Positions 1-8,729 of a DNA stretch of 15,877 bases are shown here, one piece after another (position 1 is the first letter of the stretch; each line of letters begins with the position of its first letter). The translations under genes were made by a program, and so were the position numbers. Under the pieces are notes generated by a model that searched no databases, was not told where the DNA came from, and worked only from the letters and a program-made list of their open reading frames with translations. Source of the DNA: an uncultured Clostridiaceae bacterium (lineage in GTDB: Bacteria; Bacillota; Clostridia; Lachnospirales; Lachnospiraceae); the NCBI GenBank assembly GCA_949841235.1, contig CATKZA010000005.1, forward strand, positions 1-15,877, given 5' to 3'.

Positions 1-3000
1 CCACGTAGGCGGCAATATATTTTCCCCCGGAAGGCTCGTCAAAGGCCGCAACCGTGGCATCCTTGATGCCGGGGAACCGGCGGATGATCTCCTCCACCTC
101 CGTCAGCTCGATGCGGAAGCCCCGAATCTTCACCTGACCATCCCGCCTGCCGATAAACTGGATGTTGCCATCGGGAAGGAACCGCACGATATCCCCAGTG
201 TGGTAGATTCTATCGTATCCCTCCTGGGTGCAGAATGGATTCTCCTCATAGGCCTCTGCCGTCTTTTCCGGCCGGTTCAGATAGCCCCGGGACACCTGAT
301 AGCCCGCAATGCAAAGTTCTCCCGGCACTCCCACGGGAACTCTCCTGCCCAGTCCGTCCAGCACATAGAGCTTTACATTGGAGATTGCCTTCCCGATGGG
401 AAGTTCCTCCTCAAATTCCCGAAGCTGGTAGGAGGTCACGAACACGGTACACTCCGTCGGCCCATAGAGATTAAAATACTTCGTATCCCCCTCCGGGGCA
501 AAGGGAGCCAGTGCCTCTCCGCCCATGGACAGATATTTCAGCCCATCATTCTTCATGGTGGTGGCAAACGCCCGCCCAATCTGGGTGGTCATAAAGGAAT
601 TGGTAATGCCCTGCTCCTTAAAATACGCATTCAGGGCATTCAAGTCCAGACGAATCGCCTCGTCAATGATATGAAGCTCCGCCCCCGATATCAGCGCAGG
701 ATACATATCCATCATATTGGCATCAAAGCCGTAGCTGGCGTAGGCCGCAACCCTGCTCTCTCCATCAAGCTGGTAATCCCTGCAAAATGTATGGCAGAAT
801 GCCGCAATATTTCCATGCTCCAGCATGCAGCCCTTCGGCACGCCCGTGGAGCCGGAAGTATACAATAAGATAAACAGATCCTCTGGCTTTGGCGGCTCCG
901 GAAGTTTCTCCGCCTCCGGCAGTCCGGGGATATCCTTGGTCAAGAGAACCTTTCCCTGCCATTCCGGCACCAAATCAAGAAGTGCCTCATCCGCAATCAA
1001 TAGTTTTGCATCCGCATCCTTCATCATAAATGCCAGCCGCTCCTTGGGATAGGAGGGATCCAATGGCTGGTATGCCGCCCCGGCCTTGGACACGCCAAGG
1101 GAGGCCACCGCCATATATTCGCTTCTGGAAATCAGCACGGACACCACCTGCTCCCTGCCAATGCCAAGCCCCGCAACATAGCCGGCCACGCGGTCTGTCA
1201 TGTCGTCCAGCTGGGCGTAGGACATCCGCACCTCGCGCCCATTCCCTGCCTGAGATGGATTTTCCTGCTCCCCATCCCCCTTCTCTATGTAAACCACCGC
1301 CGTATGCTCCGGCATCTTCCCGGCCCGCTCCCGGAACAGGTCAATCACGGTTCTGCCCCTGTCGAAAGGCGTATCCGTCTCATTCAAGCGATCCAGCCGC
1401 TGGATATCCAATTCCGATGTGAGGGAAATCTGGCTCAACGTGCTGCAAGACAGCATTCCCTTGAGAGTCTGGGTCAGCATCCCCAGCAGCCCCTTCGCCG
1501 TCTCTTCCCGATACAGATCCCTGCGATATTCCAGAGAGACTTCATAGCCCTCCCGGTTCTTCATCACCATCAGGGACATATCCGCCTGCACATCCCCAGT
1601 GGAAAGGGGCTTTGCAGGAAACTCCCTGCCATCCAGGGAAAGCCCGCTAAGCATCTCGCCCTGATAGACAAAGAGAATATCTGACACAATGCCATAGTCC
1701 CTGGCCAGTTCCCCGAAGGAAATGCAGTCATGGCTCATGGTCTCATAAAAGTCTTTCTGGAAATCCTGCAAATAGGATTCCACGGCAGTGCCTTCCTCCC
1801 ATGCCTGGCAGATGGGAAGGGTCTTTACAAACATTCCCGTGGACTGGGCCAGATTCACCGAATGCCTTCCATTGTTTACCGTGCAGAACAGGCTCTTGCT
1901 CTCTCCGTTATACTTGCCCAAGGCATAGGAAAATGCGCCGAGAAAGAACGTATTCTCGGAAATTCCCCTCTGCCTTGCAAACTGCTCCACCGCCATGGTG
2001 GAAAACTCCTCTCCCAGAGACAGCCGCACCTCGTCGCTCCCAGATCCGGCCTCCTTTTTCTTGTAATCCTTGATCAGAGAGTCCCCGAAATCCTCTCCCT
2101 CCAGCCGTTTCCTGAAATATTCCTGCGCCGCCTGATACCGGGGCTTTTCCACCAAAGTCTCCTCATACGCTGACATATCCATCAGGGAGATTTCCTCCGG
2201 CTTCGGCTCCTCTCCCCGGTAGAGAAGGGAGATTTCATCCAGGAATACCGTCACGGAAGTGCCGTCAAAGATGATATGATGCACATCAAAGAGAAAATAC
2301 ACATGGTTCTGATCCCGGTAAAGTGCCATGCGGTAGAGCGGCTCGCCCTCCATGGCAAATGGGCGGACAAAGGTTCTCTTCACCGCTTCCATATCCTCTG
2401 TCTCCCACTCTCCCACTTCTGCCTTCAAATACTCCGGGTGCAGATACATCACGGGACTTCCCTGGCACAGCCCGATATTGACCCCGAAGGAAGGATGCAT
2501 TGCCACCGCCTTCCTGACGGCATCCCGGAACCTGTCGGTATCAAGGTCTGCCGGCAATTCACAGCACATGGGAATATTGTACATCGTCCCCTCCGGCTCA
2601 TTGATGCACTCCAGGTAAACCCCCATCTGGGCATCCGTAAGGGGAAATTCCTTCCTGTCGCCGGAATATTTCTGCAAGCCATCCTCCTGCTCCCCGCCCA
2701 GAAGGGATGCGATATTTCCCGGCGTCCTGCCGGTCAGGACCATCTCCGGGGTCAGAGCCAGCCCGTCAAGAGCCTCCACCAATTTCAGCACATTGATGGA
2801 ATCTCCCCCCAGTCGGAAGAAATCGTCGTCCAGTCCCACGGTACCGCAGGAGAGAACCTCCTCAAAGGCAAGGCAGATGCGGCGCTGGGTATCATCCTGC
2901 GCCTCCCGGTACTCCGCCTTATACTCCTCCATTCCCGGAGGAAGGAGAGCCGTCCTGTCCAACTTTCCATTTACATTCTTGGGACGGCTTTCCAGCCTCT

Positions 3001-4318
3001 TAAAGAAGCGGGGAATCATGTACTCAGGCAACGTCTGCCCCAGATGGGTGCGGAGTTTCTCTCCCGTCACCTCCTCCCCCGACACGTAGAATCCGCAGAG
3101 GTAGCTCCTGCCATACTCATCCTCAAAGGCTTTCACCACCGCATTATCCACTCCGGGGAATAAAGTCATCTGAACCTCAATTTCCCCGGTCTCCACTCTC
3201 TGGCCATTGACCTTCACCATCCAGTCCTTGCGGTTGACATAAACATAATTGCCGTCCGGGAGCCTCTTACCCATATCCCCGGTATGCAGAAGAATCTTTC
3301 CATCCTCCTGCGTCTGGAACGTCCTTGCGCTCTGCTCCTCCAGATTCAGATAGGCCACCGCAAGGTATCCCTTGATGCAGATCTCGCCCTCTTCCCCCTC
3401 GGGAACCTCCTTCCCCTCGTCATCCAGCAAGAAGAACTCCAATCCCTCTGCGGGCCTTCCAATGGGGGTGTTCGCCATAGGTTCCTGAATCTTGTAGCTG
3501 CAAGCCAGGGTAGCCGTCTCGCTGGCACCATAAAAATTATACAAATCATAGCCGTCTCCCGCCAGCATGGATACCCGCTCGCTTCCCGTAACCAGCTTCT
3601 TCAACGCCTTGTCCTTATTCTTGAAGAGCCGCAGAATCTGGGGACTGATAAAGCCACAGGTAATCTCCTTCTCCGCATAATAGTCCTCCAGAAGCCGCAC
3701 GTCCTTCCTCACCTCTTCCGGAAGCATATGAACGCATGCACCGGCGGCAAGAACGGCATAATACTCCAGTGCAAGGGCCACGAAGGACAGGGGAGCCATG
3801 GCGGCCAGCACATCCCTCTCATGCAGAGAGAAGCCCTTTCGGTTCCGCATAACCCCCTGGGTGAAGCTGAGCATGGTGTGGACGATTCCCTTCGGCCTGC
3901 CAGTGGAGCCGGAGGTATAGACAATCAATGCCCTATTGTCGTCCGCCACCTTCACGGGATTCGCAGGCTCAAATGCGGCAACGTCTGCCATCCAGTCCAT
4001 ATCAATGAAAGCCGCCGCATCGCAGTCCTTTCTGATATACTCCAATCGCTCCTGGGGATATTCCGGCAGCACGGGGGCAAACGCCCCTCCCGCCATCAGG
4101 ATGCCGATCTCCGCCGCTATGTATTCCATCCTCCTGCCCATGCATACCAAGGCAACTCTCCCGGAGATTTCCCCATTCTTTCGAAGCTTTGCCGCAACCC
4201 TTCGGCTGAGGGTTTCCAGCTCCCTGTAGGAAGTAGCCCTCTCCCCATTGCAATCCACAATCGCCGCCTGATCCGGGTATCGCTCTGCAATATACTGAAA
4301 TTCGTCCAAAAAATTCAT
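1..4318 (-). CDS. Nonribosomal peptide synthetase, A-T-C-A..., 3' end outside window
   Basis: Multimodular enzyme that activates acids as adenylates, loads them on carrier domains and condenses them into a peptide. Start ATG at 4316-4318 follows GGGAGG by 12 bases; 1439 codons are visible and the frame is open at base 1. Adenylation domain 1: YTSGSTGRPKG near residue 134, YGASE from 263, TGD near 343, VKVNGQRVETGEIE near 370, NGKLDR near 451. Carrier domain: LGGDS with the phosphopantetheine Ser at 507. Condensation domain: LTDAQ near 556 and an intact HHIIFDG at 680-686. Adenylation domain 2: YTSGSTGVPKG from 1153, YGPTE near 1283, VKIRGFRIEL near 1395; its final NGKxDR motif and carrier are not reached. 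There is no N-terminal condensation domain, so module 1 is a loading module. Its A4 motif reads SFVALAL (V180) in place of the usual FDxx. Domain 2 keeps FDAN (D1199). Product unknown; no transporter or MbtH gene is in view. Confidence 0.95.
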   Translation of the reverse strand, partial: MNFLDEFQYIAERYPDQAAIVDCNGERATSYRELETLSRRVAAKLRKNGEISGRVALVCMGRRMEYIAAEIGILMAGGAFAPVLPEYPQERLEYIRKDCDAAAFIDMDWMADVAAFEPANPVKVADDNRALIVYTSGSTGRPKGIVHTMLSFTQGVMRNRKGFSLHERDVLAAMAPLSFVALALEYYAVLAAGACVHMLPEEVRKDVRLLEDYYAEKEITCGFISPQILRLFKNKDKALKKLVTGSERVSMLAGDGYDLYNFYGASETATLACSYKIQEPMANTPIGRPAEGLEFFLLDDEGKEVPEGEEGEICIKGYLAVAYLNLEEQSARTFQTQEDGKILLHTGDMGKRLPDGNYVYVNRKDWMVKVNGQRVETGEIEVQMTLFPGVDNAVVKAFEDEYGRSYLCGFYVSGEEVTGEKLRTHLGQTLPEYMIPRFFKRLESRPKNVNGKLDRTALLPPGMEEYKAEYREAQDDTQRRICLAFEEVLSCGTVGLDDDFFRLGGDSINVLKLVEALDGLALTPEMVLTGRTPGNIASLLGGEQEDGLQKYSGDRKEFPLTDAQMGVYLECINEPEGTMYNIPMCCELPADLDTDRFRDAVRKAVAMHPSFGVNIGLCQGSPVMYLHPEYLKAEVGEWETEDMEAVKRTFVRPFAMEGEPLYRMALYRDQNHVYFLFDVHHIIFDGTSVTVFLDEISLLYRGEEPKPEEISLMDMSAYEETLVEKPRYQAAQEYFRKRLEGEDFGDSLIKDYKKKEAGSGSDEVRLSLGEEFSTMAVEQFARQRGISENTFFLGAFSYALGKYNGESKSLFCTVNNGRHSVNLAQSTGMFVKTLPICQAWEEGTAVESYLQDFQKDFYETMSHDCISFGELARDYGIVSDILFVYQGEMLSGLSLDGREFPAKPLSTGDVQADMSLMVMKNREGYEVSLEYRRDLYREETAKGLLGMLTQTLKGMLSCSTLSQISLTSELDIQRLDRLNETDTPFDRGRTVIDLFRERAGKMPEHTAVVYIEKGDGEQENPSQAGNGREVRMSYAQLDDMTDRVAGYVAGLGIGREQVVSVLISRSEYMAVASLGVSKAGAAYQPLDPSYPKERLAFMMKDADAKLLIADEALLDLVPEWQGKVLLTKDIPGLPEAEKLPEPPKPEDLFILLYTSGSTGVPKGCMLEHGNIAAFCHTFCRDYQLDGESRVAAYASYGFDANMMDMYPALISGAELHIIDEAIRLDLNALNAYFKEQGITNSFMTTQIGRAFATTMKNDGLKYLSMGGEALAPFAPEGDTKYFNLYGPTECTVFVTSYQLREFEEELPIGKAISNVKLYVLDGLGRRVPVGVPGELCIAGYQVSRGYLNRPEKTAEAYEENPFCTQEGYDRIYHTGDIVRFLPDGNIQFIGRRDGQVKIRGFRIELTEVEEIIRRFPGIKDATVAAFDEPSGGKYIAAYV

Positions 4319-4384: not shown

Positions 4385-4416
4385 TTTGTTAGTGTTTTAT
4401 TTTGTTAGTGTTTTAT
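4385..4416. repeat. Perfect 16-bp tandem duplication in the NRPS leader
   Basis: TTTGTTAGTGTTTTAT is repeated head to tail without a gap (4385-4400 and 4401-4416). It lies between the candidate promoter and the NRPS ribosome binding site, about 70 bases upstream of the ATG. It may be a dimeric operator, a leader RNA element, or a chance slippage product. Confidence 0.85.
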
Positions 4417-4553: not shown

Positions 4554-4587
4554 ACTGGGAGATTGGCGTTTTCATTCAACTCCCAGT
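4554..4587. repeat. Inverted repeat across the brxL stop codon
   Basis: ACTGGGAG (4554-4561) and CTCCCAGT (4580-4587) form a perfect 8-bp inverted repeat with an 18-base loop holding the TGA of the brxL remnant. A competing 5-bp stem, CCCAG/CTGGG, lies at 4545-4559. There is no T-run after it on the minus strand, so a standard terminator is not supported. Confidence 0.5.
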
Positions 4588-5093
4588 GCCTTAAACACAG
4601 CATCTTCTGCACTTTGATACGGAATTCGTTGAAATGCACTCATAAGGTCTGCCGGAACACTCGCAAAGTCCACAAAAGAAGTGCTTGGAATCAACACTTT
4701 CTTTGCACCGCTGTCCAGACACACCTGAAGTGTATTTGCAAGATCGTCCACCTTTATCAACGTTCCACTGATTGTAATATCCCCCAGTATTGCCAAATTG
4801 CTCACTGACGATTTTCCAAGTGCAATAGAGCAAAGAGCAATCAATGTCGGCAACACCAGTTTATTGGTCATACCAATCCCCTGCAAATCTTGATAATTAA
4901 TGATATAATCCTTCGTAGAGGTACTAATAGAGCCGCTGATTCGGTTGCCATTCGCCTTCAGGTAATTGAATGCCGTGTTTACAGCCTCCCTGCACTTACC
5001 GTCACTGCCCAAGCCGGTGCGCTCGAACTTGCCGTTTCCTGGCATCATCTGAGATTCCAGCCGGAATACCCCCAGCATACCAGGATAAATCAA
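4572..5093 (-). pseudogene. brxL: BrxL C-terminal remnant (BREX Lon-like protein)
   Basis: About 170 residues matching, from memory, the C-terminal Lon-like region of BrxL, which with its N-terminal ATPase part works in type 1 BREX phage defence. Recognisable pieces in order: GVFRLESQM and PGNGKFERTGLGSD at the start, YIINYQDLQGIGMT, LPTLIALCSIALGK, LANTLQVCLDSGAKKVLIP, and the terminal SAEDAVFKALGVE, where the family normally ends. Full BrxL is several times longer, so the whole N-terminal ATPase part is gone. Upstream it runs straight into the start of pglZ in another frame. The ATG at 5093 lies at the join and is probably not a genuine start; no convincing ribosome binding site was assigned. 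The remaining frame has no internal stop, so the deletion may be recent or the piece may still be translated. Confidence 0.85.
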
Positions 5094-5253
5094 TCAGAGC
5101 GACTACCTTGGCATTGTCCAGCCGAATCTCATCCAACTTGTCCTCAAACTCCCGCTCCTCGTCATGCCAGAAGATAATGCGACGGTGATAGTATTCCGGC
5201 AAAGGTGCAGCAAATTTGCGGTTTAGTTCTTGCGTTACATTTTCTATATCCAT
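5002..5253 (-). pseudogene. pglZ: PglZ N-terminal remnant (BREX alkaline-phosphatase-like protein)
   Basis: The ATG at 5253 is followed by MDIENVTQELNRKF, APLPEYYHRRIIFW and EEREFEDKLDEI, a signature start of BREX PglZ as I recall the family. Homology stops after about 53 residues (LDNAKVVAL, near 5094). The rest of this frame to its stop at 5002 is out-of-frame reading of the brxL remnant. The metal-binding phosphatase core is therefore absent. The start lies 6 bases after the restored stop of the AlbA_2 gene, whose tail supplies AGAAGG as ribosome binding site, so the two were translationally coupled. Confidence 0.82.
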
Positions 5254-5303
5254 ACTGCTTTACCTTCTTTCTGTATTGATTACATAAGCAGTGTTTCTGG
5301 AAG

Positions 5304-5309
5304 CCCCCC
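5304..5309 (-). repeat. Six-G run at third AlbA_2 frame break
   Basis: Minus-strand CAGGGGGGCTTCC. With five Gs the frame would read GASRNTAYVINTERR and stop at 5260-5262, just before pglZ. With six it reads a non-family tail down to 5162. Confidence 0.75.
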
Positions 5310-5459
5310 TGTTTTTTCAACCATCTTTTCTGAACCATTCCATTCAGTATTTCTCTGGCTCTGCGCGGCTTTACTCCAAGCAGCGCCGCTGTCTGTGCTG
5401 TTGTAATGACTCCATTTTCTATCGTATACTTATGAATTTTCTGTTCTTGCTCGCTTGCT

Positions 5460-5492
5460 GGCACTTTTCCGGCATTTTTCCGGCACTTTTCC
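5460..5492 (-). repeat. Three 11-bp tandem units at second AlbA_2 frame break
   Basis: Minus-strand units GCCGGAAAAGT, GCCGGAAAAAT and GCCGGAAAAGT. Because 11 is not a multiple of three, copy number sets the frame. Three copies lead to a stop at 5430; four (or one) would continue into the winged-helix tail at VPASEQEQKIHKY. Confidence 0.85.
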
Positions 5493-6273
5493 GGCAATAT
5501 CAGTGCCAGAAAGGCTGTGCTGAAACATATCATTTTCCGAAACCGTGTTGTTTTGCCCTCTGTATAGATTGATGCGGAACGCCACCTCCATGTCCACGAA
5601 CTCTGGTTCTTTCAGTCCATACTGCTCCATTGCAACCATCAGTTTTGAGATTCCACTGCCCCATGCTTCCACCAAGTTCATGTAGGAAAACGCATTGGCA
5701 AGAGAACGGTTGCGGATTTTAGAGAATCCTTCTTTCATCAAATCAATGGTTACGCCAGGAAGCAATCCACCCGGAGAGGTAATCTCCAGTCTGTCATCGT
5801 AAATGGCCACCTGGATACGAGACTCCTGAATATAGCTACAATTCATCACCGCATTGACAATCAACTCCCGGATGCTGTCTGGCGGCAGTTCATAAATATC
5901 CTTCCTGTAAGCACCCTCAATTTGACTACCTAGACGGATATTCCGCAGGACGAACTTCAAGGCATTTTCCACCTGTTCCCACAAAGGGCCGCCATAATCT
6001 CTTTTATCCACAAACACGCTTCTGGTAGTCCCTTTAAACACGCCGCACTGGATGACCGAATGAAAACAGTCCTGCCCGGTCAGATACACATAGGCGTTGG
6101 TGGGATAAATCTTCCCATCATCTCCTTTTTTCAAAATCCCCCAGCTCAACAGGACATTCTTCGTCACATCTTTTACCAATTCCCGCTGAAGCTCAGACTT
6201 GCTATTCGTCAGAGCAACCTCTTTCATCTGCTGGCACAGAGCCTGAATCTCCTCATCGGCAACTGTCAAATCG

Positions 6274-6289
6274 GTCCGAATGACCGAAT
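6274..6289 (-). repeat. 8-bp tandem duplication at first AlbA_2 frame break
   Basis: On the minus strand ATTCGGTC and ATTCGGAC are adjacent, identical but for one base. Removing one unit joins frame 1 (VVGI) to frame 2 (TVADEEIQAL) without a stop. Confidence 0.8.
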
Positions 6290-6475
6290 GCCAACCACCT
6301 TCCTGGTTTTATCATCAACGCCAAATACGATTTGGCCGCCTTTGCCATTGGCAAAAGCCACCACAGACTTCATATATTTGATGCTCCTGTCTGGTCTCTG
6401 CACCTTAAACTCTATATTCTTAGACTCCCCTGCAAGGAGTTCTTCTATAGTCACGGGAACACCTCGCTTTCTAAT

Positions 6476-6491: not shown

Positions 6492-6698
6492 TCTACTTTA
6501 TTTTAGCCCAAATATCACTTATTCTATTAGAGAATTGACAAACTCCGATAATGCAATAACCGCTTTGCCAAACTCCGTGATTCCTCCTATGTTTTTCAGT
6601 GCCGCAATAGCTGTTCTCAGCATACCCTTTTTAGGCTTATCCGACGATGCTTCCACCTCAATAACCTCCAAACTATCGGATACAGTTTCCTGTTCTTC

Positions 6699-6944
6699 TT
6701 CCAAGTGGCAATACAGGGTTCCGCTGCGCCTGGACACCTGATACGCGACAATATCCTGCTTGCCTAATTGTCCCGCCCAATAATCGGCAATCTGACAGTG
6801 CGCTGACCCACATACCGGGTCTTCCGAGATCGACAGATTGGGGCAGAAGCTCCAGGAAACGCAATCTGTTTTCATGCCCTTCGACGTAGCGTTCTGAATC
6901 CTGCCTTCGATCTGTGTCAGCAGATTCTGATCCGGCTCCAGTAC
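6699..6944 (-). pseudogene. PhzF-family isomerase C-terminal fragment
   Basis: VLEPDQNLLTQIEGRIQ, then SFCPNLSISEDPVCGSAHC, ADYWAGQLGK and SRRSGTLYCHL match the second half of PhzF-like epimerase/isomerase proteins; EDPVCGSAH is the family hallmark. About 80 of a usual ~260-300 residues are present, and the N-terminal half with the catalytic Glu is absent. It is one base out of frame with the acetyltransferase piece beside it, and the join falls within GGTACTGG. Confidence 0.8.
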
Positions 6945-7086
6945 CGAAATCATCCGTGTACACACGCAGTTCCGGCTTCTCGATGATGCCCCGTGTGGGA
7001 GGCTCCGTTCCCTTCGGTATGAAGATAACTTCATACAAGAAGTCCTTCAAAAGTTCTATTTCACCCTTGCGAAGGCTACGGATCAC
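6945..7086 (-). pseudogene. GNAT acetyltransferase N-terminal fragment
   Basis: VIRSLRKGEIELLKDFLYE, then VIFIPKGTEPP, IIEKPELRVY and TDDFG, resemble the start of a common clostridial GNAT family. Only about 47 residues remain; the acetyl-CoA-binding part that should follow is missing. It shares the frame of the 7299 start. The left edge, near a GTG at 7086, is approximate. Confidence 0.6.
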
Positions 7087-7308
7087 ATATTTTTTGTGCT
7101 TGTCGCTCGTCATGTGGGAGATACGCTCGTTACGCAACCTGCCCAGCATCTCAAGCATCTGTTTTCCGATTCGCTCCGGCTCGTTGTCATTCCCACCGCA
7201 TATCAGTTCCAGCGTGTCCGGTGTCCAAATATACCCGTGCGCTTTGTTGTAGAGGTACTGCTGGAATTCTTCATATTCCTTGTTGCTTATCTGTTTCATC
7301 CTTTTTCC

Positions 7309-8510: not shown

Positions 8511-8729
8511 TTACAGATACTTTTTGAACGCCTTTTTCATTTTAAGCATGACATCAATCAGCCAGTCAAAAGTAAGTTCCACATCCAGTTCGTTCCGTTT
8601 CTGAATCTGTGAAACGGCAAGGTGACAGGCGGAAGAACCCACGCTGAAGTTCTTCCAATGATCCATAGACGGTTTGCGGCGATTGAAGTTCTTCCCGATA
8701 ACAGTCAGCATAAATTCACACATAGCCAT
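8511..8729 (-). pseudogene. DUF4268-like remnant with internal deletion
   Basis: 72 residues. GKNFNRRKPSMDHWKNFSVG, then SSACHLAVSQIQKRNELDVEL, look like the conserved start of a DUF4268 domain, a domain often attached to restriction- or defence-related proteins. Right after it comes DWLIDVMLKMKKAFKKYL, which looks like the family's extreme C-terminus, so roughly 80 residues seem missing between them, in frame. The N-terminus is also short. The ATG at 8729 overlaps the birA end by 14 bases and has AGGGGG just upstream inside birA. Family call from memory. Confidence 0.5.

Follow-up and report, generated by a model that had tools for sequence, protein, structure and literature searches.

A broken BREX-linked AlbA_2 gene carries an inherited array of DNA sites that may serve as an operator for its own winged helix

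The window, by which we mean the whole stretch of 15,877 nucleotides analysed here, contains a wrecked island on the minus strand, flanked by genes that were named by eye as birA-like and peptide synthetase. Two fragments of a BREX operon lie in this island, the 5' end of pglZ at 5089..5253 (-) (profile positions 1-55 of 855; PADLOC PDLC02564, 9.7e-15) and the 3' end of brxL at 4572..5081 (-) (profile positions 512-680 of 680; PADLOC PDLC02506, 1.7e-54), and a scan of 10 window ORFs recognised no other BREX genes. Across 4572-5253, ~55 codons from the start of pglZ are joined to ~169 codons from the end of brxL in a differing frame, and the intervening stretch of the BREX operon is lost. The set of brxC, pglX and pglZ expected of a functional BREX locus was not found among the 10 window ORFs, and PglZ (PF08665) had no match in the source genome, itself fragmentary (404 contigs) and only 65.7% complete.

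Three long neighbouring ORFs are open, namely those of 1439 (peptide synthetase), 333 (birA-like) and 368 amino acids (prfA-like), all named by eye. The first of these occupies 2-4318 and runs off the contig start, so that it encodes at least 1439 residues, and a perfect 16-bp tandem duplication is located 5' of it at 4385-4416. Within 6519-7299, a single ORF combines a PhzF-like stretch (PF02567) with a PDC-M14B C-terminal stretch, forming a mosaic remnant, and overlaps a second ORF in another frame. A DUF4268 fragment at 8511-8729, whose ORF begins within the 3'-terminal part of the birA-like gene, may mark the edge of the island.

Directly before pglZ, the window carries a broken gene of a family defined by a Schlafen/AlbA_2 domain, a HATPase_c_4 domain and a winged helix. 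Its N-terminal piece at 6266..6454 (-), a 62-amino-acid ORF with a GTG start, holds the beginning of the AlbA_2 domain (PF04326, 1.3e-13; profile positions 1-48 of 118), which is complete in the relatives L022, L029 and L030. The middle piece at 5430..6269 (-), an ORF of 279 amino acids, covers the inter-domain region and the HATPase_c_4 domain (PF13749, 1.7e-26) that characterises the family of Schlafen RNase, HATPase_c_4 and wHTH. The end of the linker and the winged helix follow at about 5306..5494 (-) in a frame that differs from that of the middle piece. This last piece was recognised by tblastn with L029, L030, L031 and L043, and the C-terminal winged helix typical of the family is thus assigned via homology; the winged helices of the relatives match HTH models weakly, under the curated cut-offs. 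The last piece stops just ahead of the pglZ start at 5253, in agreement with the gene end given by the first-pass annotation of this DNA. In L029, the next ORF begins 9 bp after the gene and by eye resembles the pglZ start in the window.

The first-pass annotation had described the gene as broken three times, each time at a short repeat, with slippage as the proposed cause. The second and third breaks, at an 11-bp array and at a run of six G, are real. The first is a deletion of ~274 bp with its junction at 6273..6292 (-), as seen by comparison with L022, an intact relative of 478 residues on the Lachnospiraceae contig CAJTFW010000008.1, which is 81% identical across the middle piece, was the closest relative detected and was the single relative returned by one scan of genome contigs. 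L022 has ~91 extra residues between 'VVGI' and 'SVIRTD', from which the length missing in the window gene was counted by hand, and ATTC is present at both edges of the corresponding stretch. The 8-bp tandem duplication to which this break had been ascribed is a near-duplication consisting mostly of native right-edge sequence, as judged from L022. When the window pieces are bridged, the resulting protein lacks most of AlbA_2. Thus slippage does not account for all of the indels: one of them is the ~274-bp deletion, and the array, a trait of the family, does not look like a slippage accident. The reported absence of nonsense mutations was borne out, since no stop occurs within the homologous stretches of the pieces.

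The 11-bp array occupies 5452..5495 (-) in the linker that precedes the winged helix, where it had been placed originally (repeat score 67, 3.4 copies, ~5496-5452). It comprises four sites at 11-bp spacing, starting at 5495, 5484, 5473 and, for the last and degenerate one, 5462, and it exceeds chance with z values of 9.0 and 11.9 against shuffles. A search of genome G000 for the three-unit array pattern matched a single place, the linker array of the window. The six-G run lies at 5304..5309 (-) and is the site of the third frame change, the one following that at the array; relatives continue there in another frame, a reading based on their weak, short tblastn matches. Five sites at 11-bp spacing are found in L029, L030 and L032, all intact, and in L031, an ORF without the start region. 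G086 and G144 have three such sites, with one extra site 15 bp upstream in G086, and in both the winged-helix frame is also lost; these two losses may share one ancestral event.

A genome of 404 contigs and 65.7% completeness, with breaks on error-prone tracts such as the array and the G run, might be suspected of assembly errors. We hold this very unlikely for the window gene, as the neighbouring ORFs of 1439, 333 and 368 amino acids are open and neither the ~274-bp deletion nor the pglZ-brxL fusion can be explained by errors in such tracts. Comparison with its relatives shows that the window gene is the dead remnant of a BREX-linked AlbA_2/HATPase/winged-helix gene that decayed together with its BREX operon, through an internal deletion, a shortened array and the change at the G run. 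The message of the window itself is that of a decayed BREX island.

It had also been proposed that the gene is phase variable, gain or loss of 11-bp units toggling the winged helix. A change by one unit does shift the frame, 11 not being a multiple of three, and the suggestion that copy number affects the winged helix stood the comparison, with five, four or three 11-bp-spaced sites among relatives and the lower numbers accompanying a lost winged-helix frame. In a contingency gene, however, the remainder should be intact in the OFF state. We surveyed lesions in 68 gene instances with a summed score of at least 220 bits, the window's own included. Thirty-six were intact, 5 were merely cut by contig ends and 27 were classed as broken by a rule of thumb. 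A frameshift in the linker was present in 4/27 broken genes (window, G086, G351 and G144), each of which carries a further lesion, so that a linker frameshift was the sole lesion in 0/27; phase variation was rejected as the leading function on this ground. The remaining lesions include deletions, missing starts and stop codons. L115, classed as broken, lacks a winged-helix piece in all three frames and could be short by nature, and for L110 the tag of a missing C-terminus was wrong, yet an internal stop is present. Moreover, the window gene lacks ~274 bp as well as its operon, and many arrays advance in steps of 9/12, 12 or 21 bp, which, as multiples of three, are unable to switch the frame. 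Together, these observations make phase variation improbable. Decay of the ordinary kind fits the window gene better than switching, and the broken copies give the impression of a gene that is often discarded rather than of one switched at its linker. Such frequent breakage and a cost of the gene to its host would go together, consistent with the escape mutants in trlG of Photorhabdus discussed below.

The array is an inherited trait of the family, located in the DNA that encodes the linker, immediately 5' of the part encoding the winged helix. We defined the linker as 220 bp beginning 84 bp after the G-x-G of the ATPase domain, and an array was called at a linker self-repeat score of at least 12. 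From the first set, 11 gene pieces lacking the G[STAN]G anchor were dropped. The 122 linkers were reduced to 120 by taking out 2 that were short or contained N, and then to 108 by taking out 12 near-duplicates. Arrays were present in 54/108 of these non-redundant linkers versus 0/108 core segments of equal length just upstream. Among close loci (at least 220 bits), 38/50 linkers had an array. For the other windows of these loci the figure was 38/1882, and one or more of those 38 fell in a second gene copy (L111). An order-level sample taken later, consisting of 14 loci of a new search with previously seen ones left out, had an array in 10/12 linkers, and a distant sample (phylum level, with named plasmid and phage records) in 3/18; the control segments of both gave zero positives, and 2 and 15 anchor-less pieces, respectively, were left out. 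The members below the array threshold, 54/108 in the first set and 15/18 in the distant sample, are mostly distant ones. One array was found in a relative on an Azotobacter salinestris plasmid (L193, 1989-3452), situated between brxC and pglX and carrying a 12-bp GAGTCGCGGCTA linker array; the trait therefore extends to Pseudomonadota. Two scans of viral contigs and a DNA search of plasmids returned no relative, and protein searches matched 26 plasmid records (4 retrieved) and 11 phage records (3 retrieved). Family genes are often located outside any recognisable operon.

The motif of the array is 8-9 bp long and its sequence varies between members. In most loci, the array ends ~170-260 bp ahead of the stop codon of its own gene. 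Of 217 spacings, 146 measure 9-13 bp and 39 measure 21-24 bp, so that neighbouring sites are separated by roughly one or two turns of the helix. Several arrays alternate 11/10 or 9/12 bp, giving 21 bp per pair, i.e., two helical turns. The single commonest spacing, 12 bp (63/217), drifts out of helical phase and counts against strict helical phasing. L039, with a score under the threshold, shows spacings of 32, 21, 42, 10, 11 and 21 bp, with unrelated spacers between the sites.

Copies in the main run of an array occupy more than one reading frame in 26/54 arrays (28 when stray copies are counted), and in 12/54 they occupy all three. In these arrays it is the DNA that is conserved and not a peptide, and a peptide repeat was rejected as a general explanation on this basis; it may still apply to the remaining 28/54 arrays, whose main-run copies are all in one frame. 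The same motif also recurs at different periods: TCGGAGAA at 10 bp in L168, 10/11 bp in L106, 11 bp in L070 and 12/24 bp in L008, and GGAGCC at 11 bp in L028 and 12 bp in L157, two members with distant cores. Copies in opposite orientation numbered 6 in 54 arrays versus 0.5 expected from shuffles. We conclude that conservation of the sites lies at the level of DNA and not of peptide, and that the arrays, being regular, short, direct repeats conserved in this way, are iteron-like.

An array of this kind might also arise by neutral slippage, i.e., as function-free tandem duplications piling up in a tolerant linker. A linker between domains would be expected to tolerate change, and some arrays (L006, L112 and L126) do consist of near-perfect tandem copies. 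However, the spacing is narrow, conserved cores persist between diverged spacers in L039, L004 and L071, the motif stays constant across different periods (L168, L106, L070 and L008, as well as L028 and L157), and, as described below, it tracks the winged helix even where the cores are distant. We therefore regard neutral slippage as unlikely, if less so than phase variation.

The relationship between motif and winged helix was tested with 53 arrays at first and then with 57, of which 3 came from the later sample. In the 57 arrays, the partial correlation between motif similarity and winged-helix similarity, given the core, was 0.281, which was reached by 0/2000 permutations (maximum 0.196); the 53-array version gave 0.233, again with 0/2000 permutations. 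Pairs with distant cores (<0.3) and a winged-helix similarity of 0.4-0.6 had a mean motif similarity of 0.319 (n=35 pairs), versus 0.111 (n=494 pairs) in the comparison group with winged helices below 0.25. Pairs with close cores (>0.6) and winged helices below 0.25 reached 0.162 (n=73 pairs). When the partner with the nearest winged helix was chosen among distant cores, it ranked among the top 10% by motif similarity in 22/56 arrays, with a median rank of 0.25. The core retains a partial correlation of its own with the motif (0.218, reached by 0/2000 permutations), perhaps reflecting base composition and descent, and motif similarity on the reverse strand is likewise correlated with that of the winged helix (r 0.234), although its absolute values are low. 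Because the array adjoins the winged helix, part of the correlation between the two represents joint inheritance. These statistics show that the motif follows the adjacent winged helix more than it follows the core.

Twelve rules connecting motif and helix were fixed in writing before a new search was made. In the training set, rule R1, which had the most cases and pairs the helix R.[IV]E.[NS][IL]K with TCGG[AT]G, held in 8/9 arrays versus 1/48, and R3 held in only 4/6; motifs of several rules also occurred in other arrays (R2 in 11/51, R3 in 5/51 and R12 in 7/55). Three rules were applicable to held-out arrays, in which the predicted motif was present in 4/5 cases versus 4/25 of the other rule-array combinations (hypergeometric 0.011, calculated by hand from combinations that are non-independent). 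The single miss concerned R1 in L225, where the one-base variant ACGGAGAA takes the place of TCGGAGAA.

Exact array patterns were searched in 14 whole genomes (8 + 6), which had been selected for carrying the gene. This gave 29 matches (17 + 12) in 12/14 genomes (7/8 + 5/6), all within this gene, and a backward control pattern gave one match. Thus, the gene's own array is the only array of such patterns seen in these genomes. In the flanks, a search by exact 9-mers found 12 copies of the own motif versus 3.9 from foreign motifs. A weight-matrix search of up to ~2 kb detected 4 further own-motif copies versus 0.45, in 4/54 loci, and two of these 4 copies are located at or just past the 3' end of the gene. 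With a further copy in just 4/54 loci, no general promoter operator was seen, and the candidate of a promoter operator sharing the motif was mostly not found.

We propose as the most probable mechanism that the winged helix binds the array within its own gene and that the bound array would slow or block transcription of this gene, for example as a roadblock. Such a brake might hold a self-toxic RNase at a low level, where both the RNase activity and the sense of the regulation are suggested by the domain content. Winged helix and operator, lying side by side, could then be exchanged as one cassette. An RNA-level alternative, in which the Schlafen RNase core recognises the repeats in its own mRNA, draws on the match of AlbA_2 to Schlafen proteins with solved structure; it seems to us highly improbable, as the motif tracks the winged helix above the core and copies in opposite orientation are present in a few linkers (6 versus 0.5 expected, in 54 arrays). 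Self-binding by the winged helix, taken as one explanation together with a dead BREX-linked remnant in the window and an inherited, winged-helix-matched array of DNA sites, is what we consider probable. That bacterial Schlafen-type defence genes, as a widespread class, carry a predicted operator array for their winged helix, exchangeable as a cassette and embodying a recognition code and a feedback brake, appears from the sequence comparisons slightly better supported than its opposite. If this is true, every array-bearing member would reveal, with no experiment needed, which DNA target belongs to its winged-helix sequence, and dozens of such natural pairs would allow a direct test of a recognition code for winged helices. 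A defence RNase that is probably self-toxic would, moreover, restrain itself wherever it lands by means of an operator inside its own gene.

Among solved structures, PDB 3lmm (DIP2311) matches the family profile best, the match covering the HATPase region. The model of the DIP2311-like C-terminal domain (PF22168) matched the winged helices of L029 and L030 weakly, below cut-off, and the relatives of AlbA_2 with solved structure include Schlafens. An array of binding sites inside the gene of its own binder is familiar from phage lambda, in which the origin iterons recognised by O lie within the O gene. This layout resembles that of the family array, but lambda O is a replication initiator of another family with longer iterons. 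In SaPI Rep and SCCmec Cch2, according to the part of PMC7581432 available, short direct repeats next to the gene are recognised by the C-terminal domain of the encoded protein; these iterons differ in being downstream of the gene, in their replication role and in belonging to another kind of protein.

A Schlafen-family RNase with a minimal histidine kinase and a wHTH has been reported in no fewer than 1017 taxa that possess BREX or BREX-related loci, according to the accessible part of PMC12839542. The three-part architecture of this type is the same as that of the window family, and so is the adjacency to BREX genes: the gene precedes pglZ in the window and, judged by eye, in L029, and lies between brxC and pglX in the Azotobacter plasmid; unlike the reported type, the window copy is broken. 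Repeats or operators for this type go unmentioned in that part of PMC12839542, and a literature query joining AlbA_2 with BREX and pglZ gave no match. In the literature searched, mostly below full-text level, we found no description of linker arrays in this family, and the array as a family-wide, largely DNA-level, winged-helix-matched feature is undescribed there.

TrlG of Photorhabdus contains AlbA_2 and HATPase_c_4, the same two domains as the family, and trlG mutations, stops included, occur in clones that have escaped from growth arrest at elevated temperature, as far as the available part of PMC7554251 describes these clones. These escape mutations agree with the frequent broken copies seen here (27/68). 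TrlG differs from the family in being accompanied in its operon by a separate gene, the regulator-like trlR, in the same account (PMC7554251).

At one locus (L111, genome G312), two members of the family lie ~5 kb apart; their arrays differ, and so do their winged helices.
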